Under the pieces are notes generated by a model. The model did no database searches and was not told the DNA's origin. It saw nothing but the letters and a program-made list of their open reading frames with translations. Below are positions 22,251 to 41,343 of a DNA stretch of 64,000 nt, piece by piece. Every line of letters begins with the position of its first letter. The stretch's first letter is position 1. The stretch is from Advenella kashmirensis W13003. GTDB lineage: Bacteria > Pseudomonadota > Gammaproteobacteria > Burkholderiales > Burkholderiaceae_B. The DNA is taken from the NCBI RefSeq assembly GCF_000506985.1, contig NZ_KI650979.1, forward strand, positions 1,488,710 to 1,552,709, written 5' to 3'. Both the position numbers and the translations under genes were made by a program.

Positions 22251-22637
22251 TGCATTGTTCCCTTTGAGTCATGGAATGATGGCGTCATGCGCACATTTGA
22301 ATCAAACCTTAGCGAACATTATACCATCGGACCATAACGGTCGGACCTTCGAAAAAGTGCCTCTCCGATAGACGAATATGACGAAGTGCTGTCTTTATCC
22401 ATCAATAAATAGCGATTTTCGTCTATATATGCCGCTCCGCACTTAAGGTATATCCTTTAGACCTTTTAAATAGGTGATTGTCAACTAGGGTAGACCACTA
22501 TTAAAAGGTTATACCTTATAGCCTTAGAATAATTAATCAAGAACATTCGTTTTGAATTTGACAAAGCAAACGCAAGCAAGCGAATGCAAAAAATCGTAGT
22601 ACTCAGCATAAAACAAGCATTTGACGGAGTAAGCGCA
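22251..22637. other. AT-rich divergent control region of the catabolic cluster
   Basis: 387 bp with no credible gene. It is clearly more AT-rich than its surroundings and holds the 13-bp operator at 22505, a degenerate copy at 22445-22457 (AAGGT-ATA-TCCTT), and a further dyad GACC-ATAAC-GGTC near 22331 closer to the regulator's own start. Confidence 0.6.
22505..22517. promoter_or_regulatory. FadR-type operator, copy 1 (AAGGTTATACCTT)
   Basis: Perfect inverted arms AAGGT and ACCTT around TAT. It differs by one base from the copy at 37223. TTGTCA at 22478-22483 could be a -35, placing this site at or just after the -10 of the rightward operon, consistent with repression. Confidence 0.7.
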
Positions 22638-22880
22638 ATGGAAGACATAGGCGGTCAGCCAGTCCAGTATCCAACATTACTAGCCATTCTGAAGCATAGG
22701 AAAGAGGTTCCCGTCCTTGGCGCAGCGCTCGTGGTTTTATCGATTTGCTGGTGCGGATTTAGATTGGACATGACCGACTTATATGCCTTGGCCGTGATCA
22801 TCGGCCTATGTGTCTACTTTGTTTTGAAGGCGGGGATAGAAGTGATTGATCTTATCGCTGAAACGTTGATGCCCAGGTGA
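22638..22880 (+). CDS. Small two-helix membrane protein, unknown function
   Basis: 80 residues from the ATG at 22638, which has GGAG eight bases upstream; a longer frame to 22584 has no ribosome site. After a polar start of about 20 residues, two hydrophobic helices are visible (roughly residues 27-42 and 49-72), joined by a short loop with Asp residues. It is the first gene after the operator at 22505 and lies 4 bp before the flavoprotein gene, so it is co-expressed with it. It could anchor a flavoprotein to the membrane or be a reduced transporter subunit; neither is shown by the sequence. Confidence 0.65.
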   Translation: MEDIGGQPVQYPTLLAILKHRKEVPVLGAALVVLSICWCGFRLDMTDLYALAVIIGLCVYFVLKAGIEVIDLIAETLMPR

Positions 22881-22884
22881 GATT

Positions 22885-24303
22885 ATGGAAAGTGTGAACG
22901 TGTGTGTAATAGGGGCGGGCCTGGCAGGCATGAGTGCCGCACTCAGAACCGCAGAAGAAGGTTTTTCGGTCATCGTTCTGGAGCGTGGTGTTGAACAGGA
23001 CTATCTGTGCAACACCCGGCTGACGGGCGGCGCTTTTCATGTATGCCTGAGCGATATCCAATTGCCTGCCGACGAGTTAAATAACCGAATACAGGCCGCA
23101 ACCGAAGGCGCTGCGCATGCAGGATTGTCCAGCGCGGTCGCTGAAGATGCTCGGCGGGCAGTCAAATGGTTGCAGAGCCAGGGCGTGCGCTTCATCAAGG
23201 GCGGGGCCGAGCCGCATCATAATTTTGTGCTGTCTCCTCCTTCACTACAGCGAGTGGGTGCGGACTGGCGTGGTCGCGGCGGCGATGTGCTGCTACGCAC
23301 GTTGACCAGCCGACTTGCCAATGCGGGTGGAGTCATCAAGCGTGGCCACCGCGCGCATGAGCTGCTTGTTGAAAATGGCAAATGTGTTGGTGTGAAGGGG
23401 CGTTCCGAGAAGGGTGAATTTTCGATACACGCAGACAACGTGGTAATCGCAGATGGGGGCTTTCAGTGTGACCAGGAGCTGATCCGAGAACATATCACCC
23501 CGGATCCCGATAAAGTTCTGCAGCGCAATGCAAGAACGGGCCTGGGAGACGGTCTGAAAATGGCGCGCCAGGCGGGTGCGAAACTTTCCGGGCTGGTCGG
23601 CTTCTACGGTCATGTTCTAAGCGCTGATGCGCTGAAGAATGACAAACTCTGGCCCATGCCCTGGCTCGATAACATCGCCACAGCAGCCATTGTGGTTGAT
23701 AGGCAAGGCAAGCGGTTTGCTGATGAAGGCAGAGGAGGGGTGTATATCGCCAACCAGATTGCGGCACTCCCGGATCCTTTGTCGGCGACGGTGATTTTTG
23801 ACCAGCCGTTATGGGCTAATCAAGGCACCTCCCGCTTTTTTCCTCCCAATCCTCATCTTGAAAAACTGGGGGGCACCTTGATTCGTGCCGATTCTATCGT
23901 CGAACTGGCTGAAAAGCTGGACATTGATGCGACCACTTTGCAGGCCACCGTGTCTGCCTATAACGATGCTGTTGTTCGTAACGATTTCTCGGCATTGCAA
24001 CCGGCCCGTCGGTCCTCGGCATATAAGGCCGAGGTGATCGATACAGGGCCTTTTTACGCGGTGCCGGTATGTGCGGGCATGACCTACACAATGGGCGGGG
24101 TGGCCATTGACGAGTGGTCGCGCGTTCTAAGAGACGACGATTCTATCTTTCCCGGGCTTTATGCGGCAGGCGGCGCCAGCGGCGGACTGGAGGGGGGGCA
24201 AAGTATCGGCTACGTGGGCGGATTGAGCAAAGCCGCGACAACTGGAATGCGTGCGGGAGAACACATTGCGTCAACCTGCCGTCAACGAGTCGCGACGCGG
24301 TAA
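22885..24303 (+). CDS. Fumarate-reductase/succinate-dehydrogenase-like FAD flavoprotein
   Basis: 472 residues. The N-terminal Rossmann motif is VCVIGAGLAGMSAALRTAEEG with an acidic end in IVLERG. Family blocks follow: NARTGLGDGLKMARQAGAKL, GKRFADEGRGGVYIANQIA, and a C-terminal MTYTMGGVAIDEWSRVL, then GLYAAGGASGGLEGGQSIGY. No signal sequence or heme motif is present, so it is cytoplasmic or peripheral. Relatives include tricarballylate dehydrogenase, fumarate reductase and 3-ketosteroid delta-1-dehydrogenase, which add or remove hydrogen across a C-C bond next to a carbonyl. A second member of the family is encoded at 26021. Confidence 0.9.
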   Translation: MESVNVCVIGAGLAGMSAALRTAEEGFSVIVLERGVEQDYLCNTRLTGGAFHVCLSDIQLPADELNNRIQAATEGAAHAGLSSAVAEDARRAVKWLQSQGVRFIKGGAEPHHNFVLSPPSLQRVGADWRGRGGDVLLRTLTSRLANAGGVIKRGHRAHELLVENGKCVGVKGRSEKGEFSIHADNVVIADGGFQCDQELIREHITPDPDKVLQRNARTGLGDGLKMARQAGAKLSGLVGFYGHVLSADALKNDKLWPMPWLDNIATAAIVVDRQGKRFADEGRGGVYIANQIAALPDPLSATVIFDQPLWANQGTSRFFPPNPHLEKLGGTLIRADSIVELAEKLDIDATTLQATVSAYNDAVVRNDFSALQPARRSSAYKAEVIDTGPFYAVPVCAGMTYTMGGVAIDEWSRVLRDDDSIFPGLYAAGGASGGLEGGQSIGYVGGLSKAATTGMRAGEHIASTCRQRVATR

Positions 24304-24349
24304 ATCAATTCAAAAATGAGACTTACATGGTTAAGGCAGGAAGGCGTAA

Positions 24350-25981
24350 ATGAGTGATGTAGAAACAGAAGTGCTGGTAGTAGGCGGCGGGCCCGTCGGG
24401 CTGGCCCTGGCAGGGGACCTGGGGTGGCGCAAGCACCATTGCATGTTGGTCGAACGTAGTGATGGAGTTGTTCAGCAGGCCAAGATGGATGGCGTGGGTG
24501 TGCGCACCATGGAGTTTTGCCGCCGCTGGGGGATTGTGAACAATATCGAGTCCAGCGCGTACAACCGGGCCTATCCGCAGGATAACGTATACCTTACTGC
24601 ACTGAACGGCTATGAGCTTGGGCGTCAACCCATGCCCGCCATGAAGGATGATCGGCCGCCATCGGAAAGTCCGCAGAAACGGGAGCGCTGCCCGCAGAAT
24701 ATGTTCGATCCGATACTGCAATCCTTTGCGCTGTCGCATCCTACCGTGACTGCGCACTATGAGCATAAGCTTCTGGGGTTCGAGCAGGACGGGGACGGAG
24801 TGACATCCAGGGTATTGGACGTAAAGTCCAACAAAGAAATAACCGTGCGATCACGTTTTCTTGTCGGTTGCGACGGCGGTCGCAGCACGGTGCGGGAACA
24901 GCTGGGTATAGGCATGCAGGGCAAGGGAGTCCTGACGCATACCACTAACGTCATCTTTCGATGCCCGCAGTTCAACGATTTGCATGACAAAGCGCCCGGA
25001 TATCGCTACATGTTCGTGGGGTCTCACGGCGTATGGGCGACGATCGTGGCAATTAACGGCAACGACCAATGGCGTATGTCGATTCTGGGCAATGCGACAC
25101 AAGAGCATCATTATTCGGACGAAGAACTCAAGGCGTTTGCATATCGTGCCATGGGCAAGGCTTTTTCGCTTGAAATACTCAGCATTCTCAGGTGGACTCG
25201 TATTGAACTCGTCTCGGATTGCTACGGAAAAGGACGCGTGTATATCGCGGGTGATGCCTGCCATCTGACCTCCCCAACTGGCGGACTGGGCATGAATACC
25301 GGAATCGGGGATGCGGTGGATCTGTCCTGGAAAATTTCTGGATGCCTTCAAGGCTGGGGAGGCAAGGGGTTGCTCGATTCCTACGAGGTCGAACGCCGGC
25401 CTGTTGCACACCGAATCACCCGGTTCTCTACAAGTAACCTGGAGGTAATGCAGAGCGTGGCCCATACCGAAGAAATATTTGCTGCAGGACCGACGGGAGA
25501 TGAGGCTCGCAAGAAGGTGGGACACGAGCTGGGAGAGGGGCTGAAGAAGGAATGGTTTTCCAAGAACATGCATTTGGGGAACCGATATCTGAAGTCGCCG
25601 GTTTGCATATACGACGAACCGGAGTCCGAGGACGAGAATCGGGCGGAGTACCTGGATGCCGTGAATTATCGACCCAGTACCCGGGTGGGATGCCGTGCGC
25701 CACACGTCTGGTTGTCCGATGGGCGCTCGACGCTTGATCTTTTCGGACAGGGGTTTGTATTGCTGTCAGATCCGTCTCGCATACAAGAGGTCGAACGGCT
25801 GGTGCACGCCGCGAAGGAAAACGGTGTGCCGATGACCAGTTATGCAATGGAGTCCTCCGAACTCATGCACGCCTACGAGAAGCCTTATGTTCTTGTACGG
25901 CCTGATGGACACGTGGCCTGGCGGGGAATGACGATTCCGGACAATGTGAATCGTCTGGTTGCACAAATAAGCGGTCACTGA
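24350..25981 (+). CDS. FAD-dependent aromatic hydroxylase (PheA/TfdB/MhpA class A monooxygenase)
   Basis: 543 residues. All three flavin monooxygenase motifs are present: VLVVGGGPVGLALAGDLG near residue 8, the DG motif VGCDGGRSTVREQLG near residue 169, and the GD motif YIAGDACHLTSPTGGLGMN near residue 299. A C-terminal thioredoxin-like region as in TfdB/MhpA follows (FGQGFVLLSD, later YVLVRPDGHVAWRG). Such enzymes use NAD(P)H and O2 to hydroxylate a phenolic ring ortho or para to an existing OH. In this operon, with a gentisate-dioxygenase-like gene, it is a candidate for making the dihydroxy ring-cleavage substrate. Confidence 0.93.
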   Translation: MSDVETEVLVVGGGPVGLALAGDLGWRKHHCMLVERSDGVVQQAKMDGVGVRTMEFCRRWGIVNNIESSAYNRAYPQDNVYLTALNGYELGRQPMPAMKDDRPPSESPQKRERCPQNMFDPILQSFALSHPTVTAHYEHKLLGFEQDGDGVTSRVLDVKSNKEITVRSRFLVGCDGGRSTVREQLGIGMQGKGVLTHTTNVIFRCPQFNDLHDKAPGYRYMFVGSHGVWATIVAINGNDQWRMSILGNATQEHHYSDEELKAFAYRAMGKAFSLEILSILRWTRIELVSDCYGKGRVYIAGDACHLTSPTGGLGMNTGIGDAVDLSWKISGCLQGWGGKGLLDSYEVERRPVAHRITRFSTSNLEVMQSVAHTEEIFAAGPTGDEARKKVGHELGEGLKKEWFSKNMHLGNRYLKSPVCIYDEPESEDENRAEYLDAVNYRPSTRVGCRAPHVWLSDGRSTLDLFGQGFVLLSDPSRIQEVERLVHAAKENGVPMTSYAMESSELMHAYEKPYVLVRPDGHVAWRGMTIPDNVNRLVAQISGH

Positions 25982-26020
25982 AGTACACATGACTCAACGA
26001 ACAGGGAACAGGAATTATCG

Positions 26021-27442
26021 ATGAATGCGTCACAAAAAACCGATTTCGATCTCATTGTCGTGGGAGCCGGTATGGCTGGCCATAGCGCTGCATTGGAAGG
26101 AGTGCGGTGCGGCGGACGCGTACTGCTTCTGGAGAAAACGGCCCGGTTTGGCGGGAGTAGCCGCATGTGCGGCGGGGCTTTTGCATTCGCGGGCACACAG
26201 GTACAAAAAGAAAACAACATCCCCGACAGCGCGCAGCTATTGGAGGAGGATTTGCTAAAGGCAGGAAAGTATCGCAACGATAGCAAACTGGTCCATGTCT
26301 ATGCTGAGAAACAGTTCGAAGCGTACGAATGGTTGCAGGACCTGGGCGTGGTATTCGATAAGGTGTCCTTGAGCGGCAGCCAGTCGGTTCCCAGGAATCA
26401 CAACGTGGATCCTGTCGCTGTGTTGGAATCGTTGCATGAGCATTGTTTGCGCGAAGGCGTGATCTTTCGGTCGAACGCGCCTGTCGTACGGCTGTTGACC
26501 GATGGACACGGCGAAGAAACCGTCGTAACCGGCGTGATGCTGGACGGCGGGGAAAGACTGACTTCCAGCCGGGGAGTTGTGCTCGCCACGGGCGGATTCT
26601 CGCGGGCGGCAGATTTAGTCGAACGCTTTGTTCCTCATTTGCGTAACGCAAGGGCGATGGGGGGATATGGCAACACCGGTGATGGTTTACGTATGGCATG
26701 GGCCCTGGGCGCCGATTTGAGAGATATGGCAAACGCCAAAGGCACTTTTGGCGCGCCATACGAAGCGCCTGATCAAGCGATTGAAGATGATGTTCCCAGG
26801 CTGATCTCCGCCATGTATCGCGGCGCCATTGTGGTCAACAAGCTGGGAAGGCGTTTTGTGGATGAATCCATCTCTTACAAGAACATCGGCGATCGTTGTC
26901 TGGAGCAGCCTGACGCGCTCGCGTTCCAGGTCTTCGACCAGTCGGTGATGGATCAGTCCGAGCCGCTGCCAACGGTTGTGAACTTCAAGGCGGCATTAGA
27001 GGCTGGAATGATCAAAAAGGCAGCGTCGATAGACGAACTGGCTCATGAGCTGAATGTGGATTCCGATGCGTTGAAGGAAACCATCGAACGATACAACCGT
27101 GCTTGTCACGGCGAGCAGGAAGATGAGTATGGGCGAAGCTCGCTCAGTACGGGCTATGGAAAACCGACTCCCATGATAAAGGCGCCGTTTTATGGTTATC
27201 CATGCACGACCGGGCTGACGTCTACATATTGTGGTTTGCATACCGACGAAAACGCCAGAGTACTCAATGTGTACGACGAACCGATCAATGGGCTCTATGC
27301 TACAGGCGAAATCATGGGGGGCTTTCACGGCGAATCCTATATGAGCGGTTCGTCATTGGCAAAAGGTTGCATCTTTGGGCGCATCGCCGCACAGCATGCC
27401 CTGGCTTCCTCTGCAACGCGCCTCGATAGGCTGGAAATATGA
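26021..27442 (+). CDS. Second fumarate-reductase-like FAD flavoprotein
   Basis: 473 residues. It carries DLIVVGAGMAGHSAALEGV, LLLEKTARFGGSSRMCGGA, VVLATGGFSRAADLVERF, GNTGDGLRMAWALGADL and the C-terminal GLYATGEIMGGFHGESYMSG. It is clearly related to, but well diverged from, the flavoprotein at 22885. Two such enzymes in one operon suggest two successive desaturation or reduction steps. The N-terminal region lacks an export signal. AGGA lies eight bases before the ATG; the gene follows the monooxygenase gene by 39 bp. Confidence 0.9.
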   Translation: MNASQKTDFDLIVVGAGMAGHSAALEGVRCGGRVLLLEKTARFGGSSRMCGGAFAFAGTQVQKENNIPDSAQLLEEDLLKAGKYRNDSKLVHVYAEKQFEAYEWLQDLGVVFDKVSLSGSQSVPRNHNVDPVAVLESLHEHCLREGVIFRSNAPVVRLLTDGHGEETVVTGVMLDGGERLTSSRGVVLATGGFSRAADLVERFVPHLRNARAMGGYGNTGDGLRMAWALGADLRDMANAKGTFGAPYEAPDQAIEDDVPRLISAMYRGAIVVNKLGRRFVDESISYKNIGDRCLEQPDALAFQVFDQSVMDQSEPLPTVVNFKAALEAGMIKKAASIDELAHELNVDSDALKETIERYNRACHGEQEDEYGRSSLSTGYGKPTPMIKAPFYGYPCTTGLTSTYCGLHTDENARVLNVYDEPINGLYATGEIMGGFHGESYMSGSSLAKGCIFGRIAAQHALASSATRLDRLEI

Positions 27443-27512
27443 TCGTCCTTGTCACTGCTTCCCAGGCGCATAAGCACCGCCATTACTCCATCTAGAAACC
27501 AGGTTAGCTTTT

Positions 27513-28397
27513 ATGAAAATAGCGACTTTCAACAATCATCGTGTCGGCCTTGTCGAAGGTGATCTTATTTATGATGTCACGCAAGCAGTCCCCGATGCGG
27601 GGCCCGCATTCCCGCAAGTGTATATGTCGCGTCTGATAGATCAATGGCCGGAAAGACGGGACGATATATTGGCAGCACGCCAGCGCGCACAAGGCGTTTC
27701 TCTTGAAACAGTCACGCTGAATGCGCCCAATCCGGCTCCGTTTCATGTAGTCGCGGCTCCGGTTAATTATCGCAAGCATATCGGCGAGATCGGCGCCCGC
27801 TCAGTCAGCGGAAATTCGTCGGCGATCGAGCGCGGCTTTTTTCTGAAGGCGTCGTCTTCGGTGAGCGGTCCCGGCGATGGGATCGTTCTTCCCAAGGGTT
27901 CGACTCGTCGCTTTGATCACGAATCAGAGCTTGCCGTGATCATCGGCAGGCGCGCCAAGAATATACCGCGTGAACAAGCGCTGGACTATGTTTTCGGTTA
28001 CTCGTGCCTGATCGATATGACCATGAGGATGGAGCCGGGAGTGGGAGATGAGGAGCGCGTTGCGCGCAAATCTTTCGATACCTTTACGTCAATGGGGCCG
28101 TACATCGTGACGGCAGACGAGATCCCGGATCCCGGTGTCCTTGGAAATCGTCTTTGGGTGAATGATCAATTGCGTCAGGATTCGAACACCAGTGCGCTCA
28201 TTCTGGATGTGCCCGGCCTCATAGAGTGGGCGTCGTCGGTTATGACGCTGCAACCAGGCGATGTCATCGCAACGGGTACGCCTGAGGGCGTTGGTCCCGT
28301 TGTGCCGGGCGATCGCGTGCGTATGACGATTGAGAAAATCGGCACCCTGACCGTGGATGTCAAGGAAGCGGTTGATTTTGCTCCCAAACGTTTTTAG
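27513..28397 (+). CDS. Fumarylacetoacetate hydrolase (FAH) family protein
   Basis: 294 residues: a small N-terminal domain of about 70 residues, then the FAH fold. Metal-site and active-site blocks are visible: APVNYRKHIGEIG (Lys/His pair), FDHESELAVIIGRR (Glu-x-Glu ligands), and VIATGTPEGVGPVVPGD. Family members hydrolyse or decarboxylate beta-diketo acids such as fumarylpyruvate, fumarylacetoacetate or oxaloacetate. Beside a gentisate-1,2-dioxygenase-like gene the simplest reading is hydrolysis of maleylpyruvate or fumarylpyruvate; no maleylpyruvate isomerase gene is seen in the window. Confidence 0.92.
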   Translation: MKIATFNNHRVGLVEGDLIYDVTQAVPDAGPAFPQVYMSRLIDQWPERRDDILAARQRAQGVSLETVTLNAPNPAPFHVVAAPVNYRKHIGEIGARSVSGNSSAIERGFFLKASSSVSGPGDGIVLPKGSTRRFDHESELAVIIGRRAKNIPREQALDYVFGYSCLIDMTMRMEPGVGDEERVARKSFDTFTSMGPYIVTADEIPDPGVLGNRLWVNDQLRQDSNTSALILDVPGLIEWASSVMTLQPGDVIATGTPEGVGPVVPGDRVRMTIEKIGTLTVDVKEAVDFAPKRF

Positions 28398-28406
28398 GAG
28401 ACTTTG

Positions 28407-29393
28407 ATGTGCAGAGTAAAAACACTTATTGTCACGGCGCTCTGTATGGCCCCGTGCCTGGCGATGGGACAGAATTCGTCGTCTGCCGACGGCTTTCCAT
28501 CGAAACCTGTACATGTCATTGTGCCCTTTCCTCCCGGCGGCGGGGTAGACATCGTTGTGCGGGCCGTCGCTGCGGAATTGGACAAAAAATGGGGCCAGCG
28601 TGTTGTTGTGGAAAACAAACCAGGTGCGGCTTCTCTTATTGGTGCGGATGTTGTTGCACGTGCGCCGGCAGATGGCTATACGCTTCTTGCCACAATTAAC
28701 CAGACGATAACGTCAAACAGATTTTTATTCAAAAATATTCCGTACGATCCGGAAAAGAGTTTTGCGCCGGTCTCTCTGATGACGCGCAGTGATCAGATTT
28801 TGCTGGCCAATGCGAATATGCCCGTGAGTTCGCTCAAGGAGTTGGTCACAAAAGCGTCGTCAGCAAAAAGCCCTTTTGCCTATGGTTCTTTTGGCAACGG
28901 CAGCCAGCCGCATCTCTTGTACGAATTGCTCAAGGTCGAGAAAAAACTTGATCTGACCCATGTGCCCTACAAAGGGGTGGTTCCAGCGCTGACTGCATTG
29001 GCGGGCGGCGAAATCCAACTGGGTCTGGGTAGCGCCAACGTTGCCGGGGCCTTGATCAAGGCAGGAAAAATTAAGCCCATTGCCGTTGCCGGGGAGAAAC
29101 GTTCTGAGGTCTACCCTGACGTACCTACAACGACAGAAGAAGGTTTCCCCGGGCTTCAAGCCAGCGTCTGGTATGCCTTGTTTGCTCCTGCAGGAACGCC
29201 AGCACCCATTGTCGACAAGATCTCCACAGACGTTGCCGATATTCTGAAAGCGCCTGCATTTACAGAGAAACATCTGACGCCACGCGGATTGGATCTTGTG
29301 GCCGGCGGTCCCGAAGAACTGGCAGCGGAAATACAGAAGGATGTAAAGCTGACTGAGGCAATGGTCCGGGCGGCTGGTGTGAAGCCGGAATAG
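28407..29393 (+). CDS. Bug-family (tripartite tricarboxylate transporter) periplasmic receptor
   Basis: 328 residues from the ATG at 28407 (AGGAG six bases upstream; a TTG one codon earlier is less likely). A Sec signal of about 23 residues precedes the Bug hallmarks: PSKPVHVIVPFPPGGGVDIV, the GADVVARAPADGYTLL block, and TPRGLDLVAGGPEEL near the C-terminus. Bug proteins grip a carboxylated ligand between two lobes. No TctA or TctB membrane gene is in the window, as is common for these receptors in Bordetella-like bacteria. The ligand is presumably the acid degraded by this cluster. Confidence 0.93.
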   Translation: MCRVKTLIVTALCMAPCLAMGQNSSSADGFPSKPVHVIVPFPPGGGVDIVVRAVAAELDKKWGQRVVVENKPGAASLIGADVVARAPADGYTLLATINQTITSNRFLFKNIPYDPEKSFAPVSLMTRSDQILLANANMPVSSLKELVTKASSAKSPFAYGSFGNGSQPHLLYELLKVEKKLDLTHVPYKGVVPALTALAGGEIQLGLGSANVAGALIKAGKIKPIAVAGEKRSEVYPDVPTTTEEGFPGLQASVWYALFAPAGTPAPIVDKISTDVADILKAPAFTEKHLTPRGLDLVAGGPEELAAEIQKDVKLTEAMVRAAGVKPE

Positions 29394-29424
29394 AACGGTG
29401 TTCATTGACACGATAGGAAAAGAT

Positions 29425-30387
29425 ATGCATTCAGACATGCTGACGCCAGATTTTGAAACCACGCAAAACCTGGATGAACTTCATTTGAAACTGGAACAGA
29501 TTAACGTAAAAAACGGCTGGAACAAGCCGACGCCATCGCTCTATCCAGAGCCCAGGCAGAGGTACGTGCCGGCGCATTGGCGCTATGCTGATGCGCGGGC
29601 TGCGCTGCATGCGGCGGGCCGGCTGGTGGGGACGGAATGGGCCGAGCGGCGCAATCTCATCCTCGCCAATCCGATAGAGGGCAACGACTACCCAACCGTG
29701 ACCACCATGGTAGCGGCGTACCAGATGGTCAAGTCCGGAGAAAAGGCTCGCAGCCACCGCCATACCCCGAATGCCATGCGCATCATTATGGAGTCGACTT
29801 CGCCCGCCTATACAATCGTTTCCGGTGTCAATGTGCCCATGGAACCCGGGGATGTCCTGCTGACACCCAATTGGCACTATCACGGCCATGATAACCGCAG
29901 CGATACGGACGCCTATTGGATCGATATTCTGGATGCACCCACTGTCCAGTTGCTGGGTCCCATGTTCTTCGAGCATCATCCAGACGCGGTAGAAAAAACC
30001 GAGAAGGTTGACCCGGACAGCTCGATGCGGTTCGCATTTCGAGACTATCGGCCGCAGTTGCTCGCCCAGCCGGAAGCCGTGCCTGGCGTGCGCATGCTTG
30101 GGCTAGGGGAAGGCATGGTGGAAACATTTGATCGCACCGCCATCGGGCTTGCTGCGGGAACGGTCTGGAAACAGCCAAGGAAAACTGCCAGCGACATATT
30201 CGTCGTCGTCGAAGGGGAAGGAACTTCATCCGTTGGTGGCCGGCAGTTTGCCTGGGCACGCGGCGACGTGATCGCCGTACCCAGCTGGATCGCTCAGGAA
30301 CATCGCGCCATGCAAGACGCCATTTTAATTCGCGTTTCGGATACGCCATTATTGCAAGCGCTGAACTGGGTCCGGGAGGAGAAATGA
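29425..30387 (+). CDS. Gentisate 1,2-dioxygenase-like bicupin
   Basis: 320 residues from the ATG at 29425 with AGGAAAAG upstream. The first cupin has the Fe(II) motif SHRHTPNAMRII and the second half of the site in GDVLLTPNWHYHGHDN, closely matching gentisate 1,2-dioxygenase (HRHT...; TPxWxxHxH). The lead-in AHWRYADARAALHAAGRLV and AERRNLILANP is also typical. The second cupin near the C-terminus (VVVEGEGTSSVGGRQFAWA) lacks histidines. It is 25-50 residues shorter than many gentisate dioxygenases. Related enzymes cleave salicylate or 1-hydroxy-2-naphthoate, so gentisate is likely but not certain. Confidence 0.9.
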   Translation: MHSDMLTPDFETTQNLDELHLKLEQINVKNGWNKPTPSLYPEPRQRYVPAHWRYADARAALHAAGRLVGTEWAERRNLILANPIEGNDYPTVTTMVAAYQMVKSGEKARSHRHTPNAMRIIMESTSPAYTIVSGVNVPMEPGDVLLTPNWHYHGHDNRSDTDAYWIDILDAPTVQLLGPMFFEHHPDAVEKTEKVDPDSSMRFAFRDYRPQLLAQPEAVPGVRMLGLGEGMVETFDRTAIGLAAGTVWKQPRKTASDIFVVVEGEGTSSVGGRQFAWARGDVIAVPSWIAQEHRAMQDAILIRVSDTPLLQALNWVREEK

Positions 30388-31874
30388 GCATGACCGTTAC
30401 CGGACAACTTGCCGATTTCGCGTTATCGATTACGTGTGATGACTTGCCGCCGTCGACGGTCCTGGCGTCAAAACTATTGATGCTGGATACGATCGGATGC
30501 GCCATCGGGGCTTTGGCCACGGAGGAGGGACGCGCAGTATGCGCTATCGCTCAGTCGTCGGGGGGCGAAGGCAGTGCCACTGTGCTCGGTACTCGACTCA
30601 AGGTGCCCATGCAAACCGCCGCCTGGGCCAATGGTCGACTGGGCAATATTCTGGATATGGATGAGTGCTACAAGGTTCAGGGACATCATGCCCAGGCCAG
30701 TCTGGGGGCGGCGCTGGCCCTGGCCGAGTCAGGAGGCAGAGATGGCAAGTCTTTACTGAGTGCATTTACCATGGGGTTTGAAACCGGTGTCAGGCTGGGA
30801 AATTTTCTGAGTCCCCGGGTCACGATAGACGAAAACGGTCGTACGAAAGGCTGGACCGGTCTTGTCGGGCCCGGCCAGGGCGTGCTCGCCGCATGCACGG
30901 CGACTGCGCGCCTGGCGGGCTTGAGCCGCGAGGCTCTGGCCGATGCATATGGTAATTGTGCGCAATATATGGTCGGCAGAGACTGGTCGCGTCAATGGGG
31001 GCGCGATGAAAATCTGGGGACGATGAAGTATGCCGATACCGGATGGAATGCGCAAGGTGGCATGATGGCTGCATGGCACGCAAGGGAAGGGGTGCGAGGC
31101 ATCAGCGATATTTTTGATAGCGATAGCTACGCGCAGGTTTTTCAGGGTGTCATCCTTGATCGCGACGCCATGCTGCGTGGTATGGGAAGCGAGTGGTATC
31201 TGCCCGAAACATCCATTAAATTCTGGCCCTGTTGTCGTTGGATCCACTATGCTTTGACCGCATTTTCCGATGTTGTCCGGAAAAATGGTTTGCGGCCTGA
31301 GGATATTGAGCGTGTTGACTTGCGCTCTTTTCCGATGATTCCTTATCCCCGTTTTGCTTTGCAAAGCGGTCCGCCAAATCTGGTGGCGGCCACCTTCAGT
31401 TTTGCGCACGCTGCCGCCATGGTGGCGCTGGACGTACCTGCGGGGCCTGCGTGGTTTACCAAAGACAATCTATCCGGAGATATCGCGAATGCAATGCGCG
31501 AGCGCATTACGCTGAGTGTCGATGAACGTGGCTACGATCCCGATACCTGGGGACTCGACGAGGGCGTGTTGCGCGTTCCTTCCAGCGCCCTGATCTATGC
31601 CGGTGGCAGACAGTTCGAAGCATTCTCCGACTTCGCGCTTGGAGATAGCTGGGCGGGTGCGCCAGACTTCGATGAAACCGATATCACCGCAAAATTCCGC
31701 CGTCTGACGCGGGCAGGTGCGTCTGCTTCGGACAAATGCGAGGACATGATCGACCAAGTCATTCATGCCGTGCTGAATATTGATCAGTTGGAAGACGTAC
31801 GAGATTTGACTCATTTGCTGCAGACTTTGGCGCCCTCCGCAGAAAGAGGGACCATTTTCCCCGCGAATGCTTAG
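30384..31874 (+). CDS. MmgE/PrpD-family protein
   Basis: 496 residues, full family length. It has the helical first domain with LLMLDTIGCAIGAL, ANGRLGNILDMDECYKVQGHH and GQGVLAACTATARLAGLSREALADAYG, then the alpha/beta second domain. The family includes 2-methylcitrate dehydratase, cis-aconitate decarboxylase and many uncharacterised members that often sit with Bug receptors. It starts with an ATGA overlap on the dioxygenase gene, so expression is coupled. A hydratase/dehydratase or decarboxylase role on a ring-cleavage product is possible. Confidence 0.9.
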   Translation: MSMTVTGQLADFALSITCDDLPPSTVLASKLLMLDTIGCAIGALATEEGRAVCAIAQSSGGEGSATVLGTRLKVPMQTAAWANGRLGNILDMDECYKVQGHHAQASLGAALALAESGGRDGKSLLSAFTMGFETGVRLGNFLSPRVTIDENGRTKGWTGLVGPGQGVLAACTATARLAGLSREALADAYGNCAQYMVGRDWSRQWGRDENLGTMKYADTGWNAQGGMMAAWHAREGVRGISDIFDSDSYAQVFQGVILDRDAMLRGMGSEWYLPETSIKFWPCCRWIHYALTAFSDVVRKNGLRPEDIERVDLRSFPMIPYPRFALQSGPPNLVAATFSFAHAAAMVALDVPAGPAWFTKDNLSGDIANAMRERITLSVDERGYDPDTWGLDEGVLRVPSSALIYAGGRQFEAFSDFALGDSWAGAPDFDETDITAKFRRLTRAGASASDKCEDMIDQVIHAVLNIDQLEDVRDLTHLLQTLAPSAERGTIFPANA

Positions 31875-31906
31875 CAGTGATCCAACATACAGAAAAGGAA
31901 CGACTC

Positions 31907-32878
31907 ATGCATTATTCACGTTATATGCTCATGCCCTTCTTGGTGGGATGCAGTATTGCCAATGTCATGTCGCAGGCGCAGGCCGATGAGCGTTTTCCGA
32001 ACCAGCCCATCAAGATCGTTGTCGGTGCAGCACCAGGCGGATTAGTGGACCTGGCGACTCGCAAAGTGGCCGAAATAGCCAGAGCATCGTTAAATGATGT
32101 GCCCATCATTATCGAAAATAAACTCGGCGCGATGGGGACAATTGCCTTGCAACAGGTGCTTGGCAGCAAGCCTGATGGATACACGCTGGCGTCCATTTCG
32201 ACCAGCCCTGTCCTGATCGCCCCGCTTACCTCCAAAAATGTGAAGTATGACGCACTTAAGGATGTACGGTATCTTGTGAATTTGGTAGGTCCATCGCAGG
32301 CGCTTCTGGTTCGAGCAGATTCAAAGTACAAGACCCTGGAAGATCTTGTAGAAGATGCAAAGGCACATCCGGGGGAGATCACATATGCAACCTACGGAGC
32401 GTCTGATGCGGGCGGATTTGGGGTACAAGTGATGGGCAAACAGTTGGGGGCGGTGTTTAATAAAATTCCTTACCAAGGTTCGGCGCAGCAGGTTATGGCC
32501 TTACTTTCGGGCGAGGTGCAATTTACCGTGACATCCAATTATATGAATGAAGTGCGCAATGGCAGGATGCGTCCCCTGGCGTTGCTGGACAAACAGCGCT
32601 TTGAGCCCATTGCGGACGTTCCGACATTCAAGGATCTTGGGGTGGATTTCGAGTTTCCGTGGATCACCGGTTTGGCTATGTCACCCAAGGTTTCTGAAGA
32701 CCGAGTAAAGACACTGGAGGCCGCGTTTCTTAAGGCAGCAAAGAGCGAAGAGTTCAAAGCCTTTATGAAAGAACGGGATGTACCGCTTTATGTTCTCTCC
32801 TCTGCAGAAACACGAAAGCAAATGGAAGCCTATTTTCAAGACTTCACTGAGATTGTGAAAGAGTTCGGCGAGCAATGA
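31907..32878 (+). CDS. Bug-family periplasmic receptor
   Basis: 323 residues from the ATG at 31907 (AGGAA seven bases upstream). The Sec signal ends near SQAQA. Family motifs: PNQPIKIVVGAAPGGLVDL, IIENKLGAMGTIALQQVLG, SKPDGYTLASIST and VPYQGS-like IPYQGSAQQVMALLSGEVQF. It is the second Bug receptor of the cluster and is well diverged from that at 28407, so the two may take different ligands. It follows the MmgE/PrpD gene by 32 bp. Confidence 0.92.
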   Translation: MHYSRYMLMPFLVGCSIANVMSQAQADERFPNQPIKIVVGAAPGGLVDLATRKVAEIARASLNDVPIIIENKLGAMGTIALQQVLGSKPDGYTLASISTSPVLIAPLTSKNVKYDALKDVRYLVNLVGPSQALLVRADSKYKTLEDLVEDAKAHPGEITYATYGASDAGGFGVQVMGKQLGAVFNKIPYQGSAQQVMALLSGEVQFTVTSNYMNEVRNGRMRPLALLDKQRFEPIADVPTFKDLGVDFEFPWITGLAMSPKVSEDRVKTLEAAFLKAAKSEEFKAFMKERDVPLYVLSSAETRKQMEAYFQDFTEIVKEFGEQ

Positions 32879-32924
32879 TGTCGATAGCAGGCCAATGATC
32901 TTTACCGCCTATTTTTGGTGAACC

Positions 32925-33908
32925 ATGAACAAATGCCATGCCATAACTGTCTCGTCGGATGGATCCCTCTGTCTCGTCAGGCACAGTATTTCTGCACCAG
33001 GGGAGAATGAGGTTCTGATTCGCGTATACGCGGCAGGTGTGAACAGGGGCGATATCAAACAGAAATATGGAGATTATCCGTCGCTTCCGGAATCAGCCTC
33101 GGCAGTGTTGGGTTTGGAAGTGTCGGGCGTGATCGAGGAGGTTGGCAGTCATGTTTCGCAATGGCAACGGGGAGACCGCGTATGCGCCCTTTTAATGGGG
33201 GGAGGATATGCAGAGTATTGTCTCGCGCAGGCAACCCATTGTCTTCCTATACCGGAAGGATTCGGGTTCATTGAAGCGGCGGGGTTGCCTGAGACGTTTT
33301 CTACTGTATGGCAGACATTAATACTGCAAGCCCGTTTACGGCGCGGCGAGAGCTTGTTGTTGCATGGGGGCGCAAGCGGCATTGGCGTGGCGGCTATTCA
33401 GATAGCGTCTCGGATGGGGGTGACGGTTTTAGCCAGCGCAGGCAGCGAGCGAAAGTGCCGCGCCTGCATTGACCTCGGCGCCAGGCATGCAATCAATTAT
33501 CGTCAGGACGATTTTGAATCGATCGTTATGGAACTGACGAACGGTAAAGGCGTCGATGTTGTCCTGGATATGGTTGGTGCGCCTTATGCCAGAAAAAATG
33601 TGAATGTCATGGCTGACCAGGCACGGCTGGTGTACGTTGCAGGCGATTCGGGTGGCACGGTCGATTTTAACGTGCGGGACATCATGTTGCGCAGACTGAC
33701 GATTACCGGCTCCACCCTTCGGCATCGTTCGATCAGTGAAAAACGGGAAATACTTCGAGAGTTGCAAAACGCGATCTGGCCGCAGCTGGAAAGTGGGTCG
33801 ATCAAGCCGGTCATCGATAAGGTATTTTCGCTGGAACAGGCACAACAAGCGCATGACTATCTGGAGCAAGGAAAAGCAATAGGAAAGGTGGTGTTAGGCG
33901 TGCGATGA
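32925..33908 (+). CDS. NADPH:quinone-oxidoreductase-like MDR-superfamily enzyme
   Basis: 327 residues. GroES-like first domain (GENEVLIRVYAAGVNRGDIKQ, then VLGLEVSGVIEEVG) and a Rossmann second domain with LLLHGGASGIGVAAIQIASRMG. No zinc-binding Cys cluster is present, as in zeta-crystallin/QOR-like (PIG3-type) enzymes, which reduce quinones or enones with NADPH. Within the cluster it could reduce an unsaturated intermediate. It lies 46 bp after the Bug gene. Confidence 0.9.
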   Translation: MNKCHAITVSSDGSLCLVRHSISAPGENEVLIRVYAAGVNRGDIKQKYGDYPSLPESASAVLGLEVSGVIEEVGSHVSQWQRGDRVCALLMGGGYAEYCLAQATHCLPIPEGFGFIEAAGLPETFSTVWQTLILQARLRRGESLLLHGGASGIGVAAIQIASRMGVTVLASAGSERKCRACIDLGARHAINYRQDDFESIVMELTNGKGVDVVLDMVGAPYARKNVNVMADQARLVYVAGDSGGTVDFNVRDIMLRRLTITGSTLRHRSISEKREILRELQNAIWPQLESGSIKPVIDKVFSLEQAQQAHDYLEQGKAIGKVVLGVR

Positions 33909-33959
33909 CAGGCACGGTTATGTTGAATGTCATATTGATATTATTAAAAGGATTGCAAA

Positions 33960-34532
33960 GTGGAAAACTCATACTCGCTCCAAAGAATGGCTGACAGAAT
34001 GCAGATTCAGGACGTCATGTACAGGTGGTGTCGCGCCGTTGATCGGCTGGATTTCGACGGAATCCGTTTGGTATTTCATCCAGACGGCATTGACCGTCAT
34101 GGACCTTTCAACGGAAATGTTGACGGACTGATCGACTGGATACGGAACAGACACGCGAAGATTCCATTTTCGATGCATCAAATCAGTAATATCCTGATCG
34201 AATTTGCGAGCCAGGACATTGCAATCGTTGAGACGTATGTCCGTACTGTACAGCGCTACCCAGCCGATGCGAAAGCGAACCTGGCCCAGCTTTCCGGCGG
34301 CGCGGCCGGGTCAGATGGAAGGGGGGCAGACTTGTTCACTTGTTCGCGTTATATCGACAAGTTTGAGCGTCGCAACGGCGAGTGGAGAATCGCAGAGCGA
34401 AACCTGGTGCAGGATTGGAAGCAGATTGTTGATATTCCGGACAATGCGCCTGTTCCACAGGATGGATGGCTGAAGGGAGCCCGGGACGGATCGGATCCTC
34501 TCTTCAGGTTACGGGCTGAGGCAGGACTATGA
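33960..34532 (+). CDS. SnoaL/NTF2-like protein
   Basis: 190 residues, GTG start at 33960 with AAAGGA upstream. The NTF2-like pattern is evident: QIQDVMYRWCRAVDRLDFDGIRLVFHPDGI at the start of the cone, then the central strands ending FERRNGEWRIAERNLVQDW. Members include steroid delta-isomerase, scytalone dehydratase and ring-hydroxylating dioxygenase small subunits; no dioxygenase large subunit is present. It overlaps the next SDR gene by 4 bp. An isomerase or dehydratase role on a cyclic intermediate is plausible. Confidence 0.85.
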   Translation: MENSYSLQRMADRMQIQDVMYRWCRAVDRLDFDGIRLVFHPDGIDRHGPFNGNVDGLIDWIRNRHAKIPFSMHQISNILIEFASQDIAIVETYVRTVQRYPADAKANLAQLSGGAAGSDGRGADLFTCSRYIDKFERRNGEWRIAERNLVQDWKQIVDIPDNAPVPQDGWLKGARDGSDPLFRLRAEAGL

Positions 34533-35299
34533 CACAGGGCACCTCTGGAAAATCAAGAACAGCTTTGGTAACGGGCGCGGCCAGTGGAATTGGCTTCGAG
34601 TGCGCCAGGCGCCTGGGTCAAGCGGGCATGACCGTGTTGATGCTCGACCGATCTGCCTCTGTCGTCGAGGCGGCCAGTCAACTGCGTGCATTGGATATTG
34701 CAGCATCGCCGATTGAATTGGATCTTGCTGATTCTTCGATTCTCTCAGATCGGGCAAAGTCCATTCAAAGTCAGTACGGAACTTGCGATATCCTTGTCAA
34801 TAACGCAGGGATACACCCCAAGCCAAACGGTTTTGTGGCTTCGCTTGATGTAATTTCGCTTTGCGAATGGGAAGAGGTATTCAAAGTCAACGTGACTGCG
34901 CCCTTTCTTTTGGCCCAGGCGCTTATTCCTGCTATGGTTGAAGGCAAGTGGGGCCGGGTGGTCAATATCGCCTCCAGAGCAGGCCGCACGTATTCTCCTC
35001 GTGCCGGAACGCATTACAGCGCCTCGAAGTCTGCGGTGCTTGGGATGTCCAGGAAACTGGCTGGAGACTATGCGAGGTTTGGCGTTACCGTCAATTGTGT
35101 CGCGCCGGGTCAAATAGATACAGCGCTTGCCAGAACGTCAGCTACAGCAACACTGGAGAGTGCCAGGAAAATGATTCCCGCCGGTCGTCTCGGACTCGCA
35201 GACGAAATCGCCTCTGCCGTTGAATACTTGAGCTCCGACGCTGCGGCCTTCATCAATGGGGCGGTGATTGATGTAAATGGAGGAGAGTGGATGGGATGA
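34529..35299 (+). CDS. Short-chain dehydrogenase/reductase (SDR)
   Basis: 256 residues. Cofactor motif TALVTGAASGIGFECARRLG, then DILVNNAG, the catalytic Ser in VVNIASRAGR and the Tyr/Lys pair in HYSASKSAVLG. The acidic LMLDRS after the second strand suggests NAD(H) rather than NADP(H). Last gene of the rightward operon, overlapping the NTF2-like gene; it converges on the SDR at 35339. Confidence 0.92.
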   Translation: MTQGTSGKSRTALVTGAASGIGFECARRLGQAGMTVLMLDRSASVVEAASQLRALDIAASPIELDLADSSILSDRAKSIQSQYGTCDILVNNAGIHPKPNGFVASLDVISLCEWEEVFKVNVTAPFLLAQALIPAMVEGKWGRVVNIASRAGRTYSPRAGTHYSASKSAVLGMSRKLAGDYARFGVTVNCVAPGQIDTALARTSATATLESARKMIPAGRLGLADEIASAVEYLSSDAAAFINGAVIDVNGGEWMG

Positions 35300-35338
35300 T
35301 TGATCTGATCCAGGGCTGTCGGCCAGACGCTGGTACTG

Positions 35339-36094
35339 TTATGAAACGATCCGACGCCCGCCGTCTACGCATATCAGTTCGCCCGTGACCAATCGGCTAT
35401 CGTCGCTAGCCAGGAAAAGTGCTGTTGATGCAATATCACGGGCTTCGGGAAGCCGGCCAAGTGGTGTTGTATCGCGTCTCAATTGAATGAGCTCCGGCCC
35501 CAATCGTGCGGCCGAGGCCTCGTGAAGAACCGCCCCCGGTGCAATTGCGTTTACGCGTATGTTGCGGGGCCCCAACTCCACGGCACATTGCATCGTCATT
35601 GCGTTGACTCCGCCCTTGATGGTGCAATATAACAGCCGATTAACCGAACCGCGAATCGCGGCGATCGAAGAAATGTTGATAATGGATCCGCCCCCTCGTT
35701 CTTCGAGCTTTGGCAGCGCTGCCTGTACTGTCCAGAAGATAGATTTCAAGCCGATAGAAAACATCTTTTCTACAGTGTCCTCTTCGACCTTTTCTATTGG
35801 TTCATAGCGAATCCACATGGCGTTGTTGACCAGAATATCGAGGCCTCCGAATTCGCCAGCCATTTTTTCGAAGAGCTGTAAAACATTCTGGCGATTTCCA
35901 ATATCGACGGCATAGGTACGCGCATGACCTCCGGCCTGGATGATCAGATTCGCCGTTTCCGCTGCTGTCTGCTCGTTTATATCCACGCATGCTACAGAGG
36001 CCCCCTCTGTAGCGAATTGTCGGGCTATCTCTTTCCCGATCTTGCCGCCTGCGCCGGTTACCAATGCAATCTTATTTTTCAATCTATCGGTCAT
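35339..36094 (-). CDS. Short-chain dehydrogenase/reductase (SDR)
   Basis: 251 residues from the ATG at 36094; a longer TTG-initiated frame reaches 36175 and would nearly abut the Bug gene, but lacks family sequence. Motifs: IALVTGAGGKIGKEIARQF, VACVDINEQ (acidic, NAD-type), DILVNNAM, IINISSIAA and the Tyr/Lys pair in LYCTIKGGVNAM. It follows the Bug receptor gene at 36188 on the same strand, forming a two-gene leftward operon behind the operator at 37223. Confidence 0.9.
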   Translation of the reverse strand: MTDRLKNKIALVTGAGGKIGKEIARQFATEGASVACVDINEQTAAETANLIIQAGGHARTYAVDIGNRQNVLQLFEKMAGEFGGLDILVNNAMWIRYEPIEKVEEDTVEKMFSIGLKSIFWTVQAALPKLEERGGGSIINISSIAAIRGSVNRLLYCTIKGGVNAMTMQCAVELGPRNIRVNAIAPGAVLHEASAARLGPELIQLRRDTTPLGRLPEARDIASTALFLASDDSRLVTGELICVDGGRRIVS

Positions 36095-36187
36095 ATCAAT
36101 ACCCGCTATTATTACTTTCGTAGAGATGCATCCCTGCCCCAAGTGTGAGGAACGCATCCTTTGCTTCTCGGTCAATGGCGTGAAGAA

Positions 36188-37153
36188 TTATTTCATCTCG
36201 ATTTTTGCTTCCTGCAGGAAGCGCTTCCAGTAGTCAAGATCCGATTTCACGGACTTTTCGAGAAATTTTGAAGAGGTGTCGGGCACCGGTTCCATTCCAA
36301 CACCGGCCATGCGCTCTTTGACCTTCGGCATCTGTACCGCTTTTGAAAAAGCATCATTTAGTGTTTTCACTATCCCGGGGGGAGTGCCGGCGGGCGCCAC
36401 AATGCTATACCAGGTAGAAATAAGGAAATCTTTCACGCCCGCTTCTTGCATCGTCGGGACTTCTGGTGCCGCCTGCAGCCGTTGCGCGCTTGTTACCGCT
36501 AAAGGTTTAAGTGTACCGTTCTGAATATGCGCCATTGCGGACAAATCGCTAAAGACCATATCGACCTCTCCACCGATGAGGCCTATCAGCGCGGGGCCGA
36601 CTCCTTTGTATGGTACATGAGTCATCTGAATATCAGCGCGCTTTTTGAACATTTCGCCCGATAGATGCGGTGTTGCACCTTTCCCGGAGGAACCGAAATT
36701 AAGTTTTCCCGGGTGCTGCTTTGCGTAGTCAATCACGTCTTGAACCGAATTGAAGGGGCTATCTGCCTTGACTACCAAAATGTTTGCAGACCTGTATAGC
36801 ATTGCCACCGGAGAGAAATCCTTGATAGGGTCGTATAACACCTTGTCGTACAGGTTGGGATTAATTGCCATGGTGCTGTTGACGCCCATCAACAGCGTGT
36901 AGCCATCCGGCTTTGATTTGGCGACATATGCGGCGCCAAGACCGCCGTTCGCGCCTGGCTTGTATTCGACAATCATGCGTTGGCCCAAAAGCGGCTGCAC
37001 GGCTTCGGCCATAATCGGACCGAACACACTGCTCATGCCACCTGATGCATAGGGTACGATAAGCGTAATGGGCTTTTCGGGGAAAGCGGCATAGCTGTTT
37101 GTCGTTAAAACGGCTATATACAAAAATCCAATATGAATTAATCTTTTAATCAT
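36188..37153 (-). CDS. Bug-family periplasmic receptor
   Basis: 321 residues. Sec signal of about 22 residues ending in SYAA. Family blocks: PEKPITLIVPYASGGMSSVF, IVEYKPGANGGLGAAYVAKS, KPDGYTLLMGVN and THVPYKGVGPALIGLIGGEVD. Third Bug receptor of the regulon and the first gene of the leftward operon; the 13-bp operator lies 70 bp before its start. Confidence 0.93.
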   Translation of the reverse strand: MIKRLIHIGFLYIAVLTTNSYAAFPEKPITLIVPYASGGMSSVFGPIMAEAVQPLLGQRMIVEYKPGANGGLGAAYVAKSKPDGYTLLMGVNSTMAINPNLYDKVLYDPIKDFSPVAMLYRSANILVVKADSPFNSVQDVIDYAKQHPGKLNFGSSGKGATPHLSGEMFKKRADIQMTHVPYKGVGPALIGLIGGEVDMVFSDLSAMAHIQNGTLKPLAVTSAQRLQAAPEVPTMQEAGVKDFLISTWYSIVAPAGTPPGIVKTLNDAFSKAVQMPKVKERMAGVGMEPVPDTSSKFLEKSVKSDLDYWKRFLQEAKIEMK

Positions 37154-38064: not shown

Positions 38065-38147
38065 TTTTGCGTCCTGATTTGTGTTCCGATGAGGTCTGAT
38101 ATTACAGCCTCGGGCGCGTTCAAGCAAAGGCACGGCCTGATCCGGCA

Positions 38148-38960: not shown

Positions 38961-38967
38961 GTGTAAT

Positions 38968-40038: not shown

Positions 40039-40085
40039 AGCAATATTCCTGTGTATTTCGGATAAAAATAGCAATTGAAATGCAA

Positions 40086-40191
40086 TTGCGGCAAAAGGTG
40101 CTGGCATGCAAGAGCTCTCATGCGCTGGGCCATGATACGGTTGGTGCTTGTCCGCAGCTACCTCAAAAAACGCAATTCTGAATTGCCGCAA
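40086..40191. promoter_or_regulatory. Two 9-bp sites in opposite orientation between divergent genes
   Basis: TTGCGGCAA at 40086-40094 and its exact reverse complement TTGCCGCAA at 40183-40191 flank the divergent promoters of the enolase-family and Bug genes. The TTGC-N-GCAA dyads may bind the LysR regulator encoded at 41344. Several CAATTG repeats lie beside them. Confidence 0.4.
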
Positions 40192-41276: not shown

Positions 41277-41343
41277 GTGTTAAGCTGGTGACGGGATGAT
41301 CTAGACTGGCAGAGCTTGGCCTGCCTTGGGATATAACAACGTC

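Follow-up and report, generated by a model that had tools for sequence, protein, structure and literature searches.

A 64-kb stretch of the Advenella kashmirensis W13003 genome (hereafter the window; the whole genome counts 4.85 Mb in 12 contigs) holds a likely operon with two FAD_binding_2 flavoproteins, here called flavoprotein A (FLA) and flavoprotein B (FLB), a class A flavin monooxygenase (MO), a gentisate-dioxygenase-like bicupin and an FAH-family hydrolase. Its first gene, overlooked in an earlier reading made from the letters alone (the sequence-only reading), lies at 22638-22880 on the plus strand and encodes a predicted two-helix membrane protein of 80 residues (Table 1). The pairing of FLA with this small protein, rather than the ring pathway, is the most novel element of the locus. 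With confidence evenly balanced, we propose that the operon degrades a carboxylated ring compound by gentisate-type cleavage and direct hydrolysis, in which FLA and the 80-residue protein would form a membrane-linked two-subunit dehydrogenase. More tentatively, FLA and its partner may represent an undescribed family of membrane flavoprotein dehydrogenases, in which a cofactor-free two-helix protein, usually encoded once per genome, might be the dock or quinone outlet common to several paralogous flavoproteins of different substrates, and might here drive an alicyclic acid through aromatisation towards gentisate-type degradation. No description of the small protein or of the gene cluster was found in the open-access literature searched.

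The stop codon of the small gene stands 4 bp before the FLA start; the frame is open from 22584 (open reading frame 22584-22880), and the start at 22638 was picked by similarity. Proteins of 76-82 residues with a similar C-terminus, annotated as hypothetical, adjoin the FLA homologue in Variovorax paradoxus VAI-C, Azospirillum Az39, Cupriavidus NH9 (downstream of FLA) and Neorhizobium OS53. An alignment of 35 members displays two hydrophobic stretches, Glu or Asp at two columns in all 35, and an invariant Leu and Pro near the C-terminus. In the same alignment no Cys or His is conserved (the commonest His column reaches 16 of 35), and the TcuB-like iron-sulfur and heme ligands were not found. 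None of the five small proteins scanned reached a Pfam cut-off (best E 0.36; 0.93 for the window copy), none of seven reached an NCBIfam cut-off (the window copy without a match at E 0.1), and no PDB chain was matched by the family profile at E 0.1. Three of these seven have NCBIfam matches below cut-off, the best to HmcE (E 0.0019, 17.8 bits, cut-off 275), which we take as chance or shared hydrophobicity. In addition, three proteins from two genomes (loci L011, L015 and L016) are fusions in which the small domain follows the FLA C-terminus. The structure model of the L011 fusion, with a mean predicted local distance difference test score (pLDDT) of 87.4, places two long helices (500-530 and 534-565, pLDDT about 64-78) after a disordered linker.

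Among 200 genomes of the family, the 11 with FLA (E 1e-60) are also the 11 with the small protein (E 1e-5); since the rows of the small-protein model include sequences from these 11 genomes, the shared presence is partly circular, a limit that does not touch the 189 genomes without either. By coordinates, all 14 places of the small protein in the 200 genomes lie with FLA, ten as separate genes at most 90 bp away, three as fusions and one at 2.7 kb, and 2 of the 16 FLA places have no nearby small gene of their own beyond a shared one. In a class-wide draw of 369 genomes, for which the best 4 (FLA) or 16 (small protein) candidates per genome were scored, only the genome of the window has FLA (E 1e-120) or the small protein (E 1e-6). 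The cluster is accessory: within the 200 genomes of the family, the other nine members of this genus have neither FLA nor the small gene. FLA was matched at E 1e-50 on nine plasmid records, and the small gene is present on eight of them; on the Paraburkholderia PREW-6R plasmid the searches run found FLA and no small gene. We also collected 80 FLA loci, the best 80 of 296 relatives and thus not a random sample, many of them on short contigs, and 37 of these hold the small gene within the fetched stretch.

The lower half of the pathway is predicted to be gentisate-like, as the sequence-only reading had proposed. The six best PDB matches of the cupin are named gentisate 1,2-dioxygenase and the seventh is 5-nitrosalicylate dioxygenase, while the HRH...H motif of the N-terminal cupin, which we take to comprise the metal ligands, is kept in all ten aligned cupins. 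The FAH protein finds its best PDB match in maleylpyruvate hydrolase (6jvv/6jvw, E 2.7e-77 over residues 1-286 of 294), the next match standing at 4e-46. Direct hydrolysis of maleylpyruvate is established chemistry that needs no isomerase, and this relationship therefore explains why none occurs among the operon genes; a standard gentisate operon with an isomerase was rejected for these reasons. The sequence-only reading had taken the missing maleylpyruvate isomerase to mean that the operon was not a standard gentisate one; the absence among the operon genes stands, and it points to the direct-hydrolysis branch and not to a route other than gentisate. MO reaches 630 bits with NF004780 (cut-off 445) and matches RebC in the PDB (2r0c, E 5.5e-99). 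Note that a second gentisate-dioxygenase-like protein is encoded elsewhere in the genome (G000:C1:127053-128090; 251 bits, below cut-off).

A search for the same gene set in other genomes, as suggested with the sequence-only reading, found large parts of it in Variovorax, Verticiella, Bordetella ansorpii, Acidovorax, Rhizobium gallicum and two sphingomonads, though some of these genomes lack some of its parts, and because these parts recur together, the grouping is more than chance. These neighbourhoods rest mainly on tblastn places and deposited annotation, and the CoA-ligase relatives on crude calling of open reading frames, which on raw contigs overlooked known genes (e.g., MO in L023 and the cupin in L032). 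The V. paradoxus VAI-C cluster unites a FadR regulator, Bug receptor, FAH protein, cupin, PrpD, SDRs, small protein, FLA, MO, FLB and an amidohydrolase, with identities to the window of 67% (FLA), 71% (MO), 69% (FLB), 76% (FAH), 70% (cupin) and 66% (PrpD); its regulator is 69% identical to that of the window, and a receptor near its start is 59% identical to Bug receptor 3. A plasmid of R. gallicum IE4872 carries a PrpB relative, MO, FAH protein, cupin, small protein, FLA, SDR, FLB, a further SDR and two PrpD relatives, and Acidovorax SRB_14 has FLA, FLB, cupin, MO and FAH protein. Verticiella holds FLA, MO, FLB, PrpD and SDRs, with no cupin or FAH protein within the 21 kb examined. The sphingomonads (Novosphingobium and Sphingobium) have FLA, FAH protein, cupin and MO next to enoyl-CoA hydratase and CoA-ligase relatives, with no FLB at these loci. 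FLB is also missing at the locus of B. ansorpii, which has FLA, MO, PrpD, a gentisate-dioxygenase relative and FAH protein; the Paraburkholderia PREW-6R plasmid combines FLA, MO and FAH protein with a gentisate-dioxygenase relative that stays below cut-off (278.6 bits). In both, this more distant relative (30-31% identical to the window cupin, below cut-off) replaces the cupin.

At two further loci, no more than about 15 kb separate FLA from a 3-hydroxybenzoate 6-monooxygenase and a true gentisate dioxygenase. In Azospirillum Az39, the neighbours of FLA and its small protein at distances of up to about 17 kb are a KstD-like (KstD/ChcC2-like) flavoprotein, a 3-hydroxybenzoate 6-monooxygenase (over cut-off), a gentisate dioxygenase (over cut-off at 578 bits), an FAH protein and a protein annotated as maleylacetoacetate isomerase. 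In a Rhodospirillales metagenome-assembled genome (MAG), FLA, a KstD-like protein and a gentisate dioxygenase (561 bits, over cut-off) share about 9 kb with a 3-hydroxybenzoate 6-monooxygenase of 67% identity. These loci give the best, circumstantial evidence that FLA may feed a 3-hydroxybenzoate/gentisate route. In a quick FLA tree of 103 rows, from which the duplicate loci L001, L002, L003, L004 and L012 and fragments below 1100 bases were left out, the 11 rows linked to MO need 2 changes against a mean of 6.4 after shuffling; ten of the 11 belong to a single starred set of 24, and the FLA of the window to a starred set of five, all MO-linked. A twelfth locus with an MO match (L082), unlabelled in this test, falls outside the set of 24.

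At the Fcc3 columns Arg402, His504 and Arg544, the substrate-binding positions of fumarate reductase, FLB has Tyr, Ser and Tyr, so that the residues for fumarate are lost. Its Y286 and Y440 align with tyrosines of the KSTD chains 4c3x and 7p18, presumably the catalytic Tyr318 and Tyr487 of KSTD1; both are invariant in the five aligned FLB sequences and Tyr in all six FLB of the joint alignment. The FLA of the window shows Gly, Tyr and Ser at the three Fcc3 columns, so that the fumarate-reductase residues are not kept there either, and one of eight FLA rows (L020) has Arg at the third. FLA has an invariant Tyr443 three columns beyond that of Arg544. Fumarate reductase was therefore rejected for both flavoproteins on their changed active sites, though such enzymes are their best PDB matches. 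The FLB model, built from five sequences, is of moderate quality (mean pLDDT 73.9).

Altogether, the Bug receptors would import an alicyclic or partly unsaturated oxo or hydroxy acid, from which an SDR would form a ring ketone. FLB, KstD-like by its active site, and FLA would desaturate this ketone to a phenolic acid, with FLA handing its electrons to the membrane pool via the small partner; that the latter passes them to quinone is suggested by analogy with TcuA and TcuB. MO may then add a para-hydroxyl to the phenolic acid, the bicupin may open the resulting gentisate analogue, the FAH protein would hydrolyse the maleylpyruvate analogue to pyruvate and (substituted) maleate, and the MmgE/PrpD protein would handle the diacid. 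The computations themselves establish the families of the proteins, the recurrent gene set, the joint occurrence and fusion of FLA and the small protein, and the missing fumarate residues of FLB. Within this scheme ring aromatisation is plausible from the gene neighbourhood, and we infer the substrate, the order of the steps, the electron acceptor and which flavoprotein performs which desaturation.

Several observations weigh against this proposal. Regarding the pairing, the fetched stretch lacks a small gene at 43 of the 80 FLA loci. These come from 30 genomes; 29 of them encode the small protein elsewhere (27 once and two twice), in favour of the pairing, and in one genome (G593) it was not found. 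Moreover, the three fusions form one starred clade of the FLA tree and may therefore go back to a single event. Regarding the ring chemistry, only 13 of the 80 FLA loci carry any of four ring markers (MO, cupin, KstD-like protein or 3-hydroxybenzoate 6-monooxygenase), or 11 of the 38 loci of at least 20 kb, so that the FLA family is not tied to rings, and FLB occurs at 40% identity in four of the 80. The best PDB matches are fumarate reductases for FLA (1.4e-26, against 2.2e-15 for KSTD) and for FLB (1qo8, 1.8e-55; best delta1-KSTD 1.3e-31, delta4-KSTD 1e-36), and FLB reaches 282.7 bits with the flavocytochrome c subfamily TIGR01813, 3 under the cut-off of 285.45. In a flavoprotein tree of 30 rows that includes four TcuA references, FLA leans to TcuA and not to KstD. 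The rows of TcuA also have Tyr at the second KSTD column, and the tyrosines of FLB are thus not unique to ketone desaturases. Finally, the cupin scores 193.8 bits with TIGR02272, far below the cut-off of 442.1.

Loci without a small gene of their own are most simply explained if several FLA paralogues share one small membrane protein. The clearest candidate case is a betaproteobacterial MAG (G572; loci L033, L068, L072 and L090) with at least four FLA loci and a single small-protein match. Judging from its neighbourhoods, FLA is probably a broad family with several substrates. A third FAD_binding_2 clade ("FADox", about 500 residues) travels with FLA and a KstD-like flavoprotein in Azospirillum (L018, 17710-19224), Neorhizobium (L096, 7953-9428) and the Rhodospirillales MAG (L020, 13201-14694), and its L018 copy reaches no named family's cut-off. 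FLA is also carried by MAGs titled Bordetella parapertussis or Klebsiella pneumoniae (L029, L036, L045, L048, L051 and L087); their FLA stand mostly among betaproteobacterial MAGs in the tree, and the titles look mislabelled.

The sequence-only reading had likened the two flavoproteins to the desaturases of cyclohexanecarboxylate aromatisation; by family, a KstD/ChcC type is not supported for both. Besides the PDB matches, the scores with ChcC1 and ChcC2 (NF053676 and NF053677) are 88.5 and 107.5 bits for FLA and 148.7 and 139.7 bits for FLB, far from the cut-offs of 1000 and 900, and a ChcC-type desaturase was rejected for FLA on this ground. In the 30-row tree, FLA (100/100), FLB (100/99), KSTD (100/100) and TcuA (100/100) form separate clades, the KSTD clade excluding FLB. 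The comparison with KstD that was suggested with that reading is divided, FLB having the active-site tyrosines of ketone desaturases while both flavoproteins stand outside the KSTD clade. A grouping with fumarate or tricarballylate enzymes, which would speak against ring desaturation, is touched by the PDB matches, the flavocytochrome c score of FLB and the position of FLA near TcuA, and is not clear in view of the separate clades. As a whole, the sequence-only reading thus keeps its gentisate-type lower half and finds agreement in the FLB tyrosines, while a KstD/ChcC family is not supported for its two flavoproteins.

The position of FLA near TcuA leads to a serious rival, which we consider rather unlikely: FLA and the small protein would be a TcuA-like dehydrogenase of an acyclic acid, turning a substituted succinate or tricarballylate into an aconitate-like acid that PrpF, PrpD and PrpB homologues isomerise, hydrate and cleave, while the ring part feeds this branch or is a separate one and no aromatisation takes place. 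TcuA (NF006130) is the top NCBIfam model of FLA with 208.8 bits, both clades are sisters at 90/87, and the invariant His243 of FLA aligns with Fcc3 His365, as in TcuA. In addition, of the 80 FLA loci 57 include Bug receptors and 27 MmgE/PrpD proteins, the V. paradoxus VAI-C cluster has PrpF and PrpB over their cut-offs, and TcuA itself sends electrons to the membrane via TcuB in the accounts cited below. However, FLA remains far under the TcuA cut-off of 369 and a true TcuA (703 bits) is encoded elsewhere in the same genome, for which reasons FLA was rejected as TcuA itself; the sister relation lies below the starred level and lacks strong support; and the clusters that unite FLA with a KstD-like protein, a 3-hydroxybenzoate hydroxylase and a gentisate dioxygenase are hard to explain in this way.

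An unlikely alternative, compatible with all other readings, concerns the small protein alone, which would be no electron outlet and would instead help, for example, in transport or assembly, being inherited together with FLA. The absence of a conserved cofactor ligand and the richness of the clusters in transporters agree with such a role, but the fusion to the C-terminus of FLA and the presence in trans point to FLA itself as the partner. Quite improbable is an already aromatic substrate, with the flavoproteins acting on its side chain (e.g., C=C reduction or oxidation, as in vinyl phenol or urocanate reductase) and only MO, cupin and FAH protein on the ring: FLB scores 192 bits against the VprA model (vinyl phenol reductase) and 283 against that of the flavocytochrome c subfamily, and urocanate reductase is the first fold match of the FLA model (22% identity), but the VprA cut-off is 600 bits, FLB has KSTD-type tyrosines without fumarate-type arginines, and the fold matches, which also list fumarate reductase, KstD and cyclohexanone dehydrogenase, do not discriminate among these enzymes and are not decisive.

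If the proposed dehydrogenase of FLA and its small partner is real, a protein of 80 residues, with neither iron-sulfur clusters nor heme, would be enough to link a soluble FAD_binding_2 enzyme to the membrane, an arrangement far simpler than that of succinate dehydrogenase or TcuB, and one small protein would suffice for several enzymes. An unnamed flavoprotein family would then be tied to alicyclic and aromatic acid catabolism, with a testable route from non-aromatic ring acids to the gentisate pathway. The pairing also offers a way to search Proteobacteria for unassigned flavoprotein clusters, among them those of betaproteobacterial MAGs with multiple FLA.

Within the window, all genes named in the sequence-only reading were recovered in place by Pfam and NCBIfam scans, including its three Bug receptors; only the cupin start that it gave (29425) proved to be a later start within the gene. 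Its single operon is likely as well, since the 12 co-directional genes of 22638-35299 are separated by only -4 to 70 bp; SDR oxidoreductase 2 and the third Bug receptor are convergent to them. The matches of SDR oxidoreductases 2 and 3 to the ChcB1 and ChcB2 models are below cut-off and not specific.

Table 1. Genes of the proposed operon and of its immediate surroundings (positions in the window).
Gene product	Position	Strand	Basis
GntR/FCD (FadR-type) regulator, divergent from operon	21441-22250	-	Pfam GntR and FCD
Small two-helix membrane protein, 80 residues, proposed FLA partner	22638-22880	+	Similarity to FLA-adjacent homologues
Flavoprotein A (FLA), FAD_binding_2	22885-24303	+	Pfam; separate clade, TcuA its weakly supported sister
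Class A flavin monooxygenase (MO), FAD_binding_3/Rng_hyd_C, PRK06126 subfamily, RebC-like	24350-25981	+	NF004780; RebC 2r0c
Flavoprotein B (FLB), FAD_binding_2, KstD-like active-site tyrosines	26021-27442	+	Pfam, alignments
FAH-family (FAA) hydrolase, maleylpyruvate-hydrolase-like	27513-28397	+	PDB 6jvv/6jvw
Bug/TctC solute receptor 1	28404-29393	+	PF03401
Gentisate-dioxygenase-like bicupin	29398-30387	+	TIGR02272 (below cut-off), PDB matches, metal motif
MmgE/PrpD protein, possible hydratase of diacid product	30384-31874	+	PF03972, PF19305
Bug/TctC solute receptor 2	31877-32878	+	PF03401
NAD(P)H:quinone oxidoreductase, PIG3 family	32925-33908	+	TIGR02824, 414 bits (cut-off 296.8)
SnoaL/NTF2-like protein	33960-34532	+	PF13577
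SDR oxidoreductase 1, last operon gene	34529-35299	+	PF00106/PF13561
SDR oxidoreductase 2, convergent	35339-36175	-	PF13561; NF005559 over cut-off
Bug/TctC solute receptor 3, convergent	36188-37153	-	PF03401

Further genes of the window surround this set. An enolase-superfamily protein (38968-40284, minus strand; muconate cycloisomerase-like, 185 bits, below the cut-off of 334.95) stands with an alpha/beta hydrolase, an SDR, a further Bug receptor and a LysR regulator (at 38148-39026 and 37330-38151 on the minus strand, 40248-41276 and 41326-42288 on the plus strand), and the set of 37330-42288 is possibly another acid-degradation cluster. Upstream of the operon, a protein of the 2-oxoadipate dioxygenase/decarboxylase family (HGLS, PF07063) is encoded at 13418-14803 on the plus strand. 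The region of 43663-55061, with a sigma-54 activator domain protein (43663-45765, minus strand), an aldehyde dehydrogenase (45908-47431), a molybdopterin-binding dehydrogenase (48112-50517) and a PQQ-domain protein (53271-55061), resembles an alcohol/aldehyde oxidation region.

Compared with known systems, the operon resembles the direct-hydrolysis branch of the gentisate pathway in its cupin and FAH relatives, the metal motif being kept, and differs from it in a cupin below the curated cut-off, in the extra flavoproteins and the MmgE/PrpD protein, and in a RebC-like MO that replaces 3-hydroxybenzoate 6-monooxygenase. In Sinomonas, the chc genes aromatise cyclohexanecarboxylate to 4-hydroxybenzoate by means of two desaturases (PMC9795900). 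Both systems combine two FAD_binding_2 flavoproteins with SDRs, and FLB shares the tyrosines of KstD-type desaturases, whereas the flavoproteins of the window stay far below the ChcC1 and ChcC2 cut-offs and their product would enter a gentisate route and not protocatechuate. The 3-ketosteroid dehydrogenases and cyclohexanone dehydrogenase (4c3x, 7p18 and 8am3) are alike in the fold of the FLA model and in the active-site tyrosines of FLB, although both flavoproteins lie outside their clade. Flavocytochrome c fumarate reductases and urocanate reductase supply the best PDB sequence matches of FLA and FLB and the best fold matches of the FLA model, but both flavoproteins of the window have other residues at the substrate-binding Arg and His columns, except for one His in FLA. 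In the tricarballylate dehydrogenase TcuA/TcuB, the membrane protein TcuB takes electrons from the FADH2 of TcuA (PMC10468695, PMC8593673). TcuA is the nearest flavoprotein clade to FLA, and in both systems a membrane partner would serve the flavoprotein, the one proposed here having only 80 residues and no conserved Cys or His.

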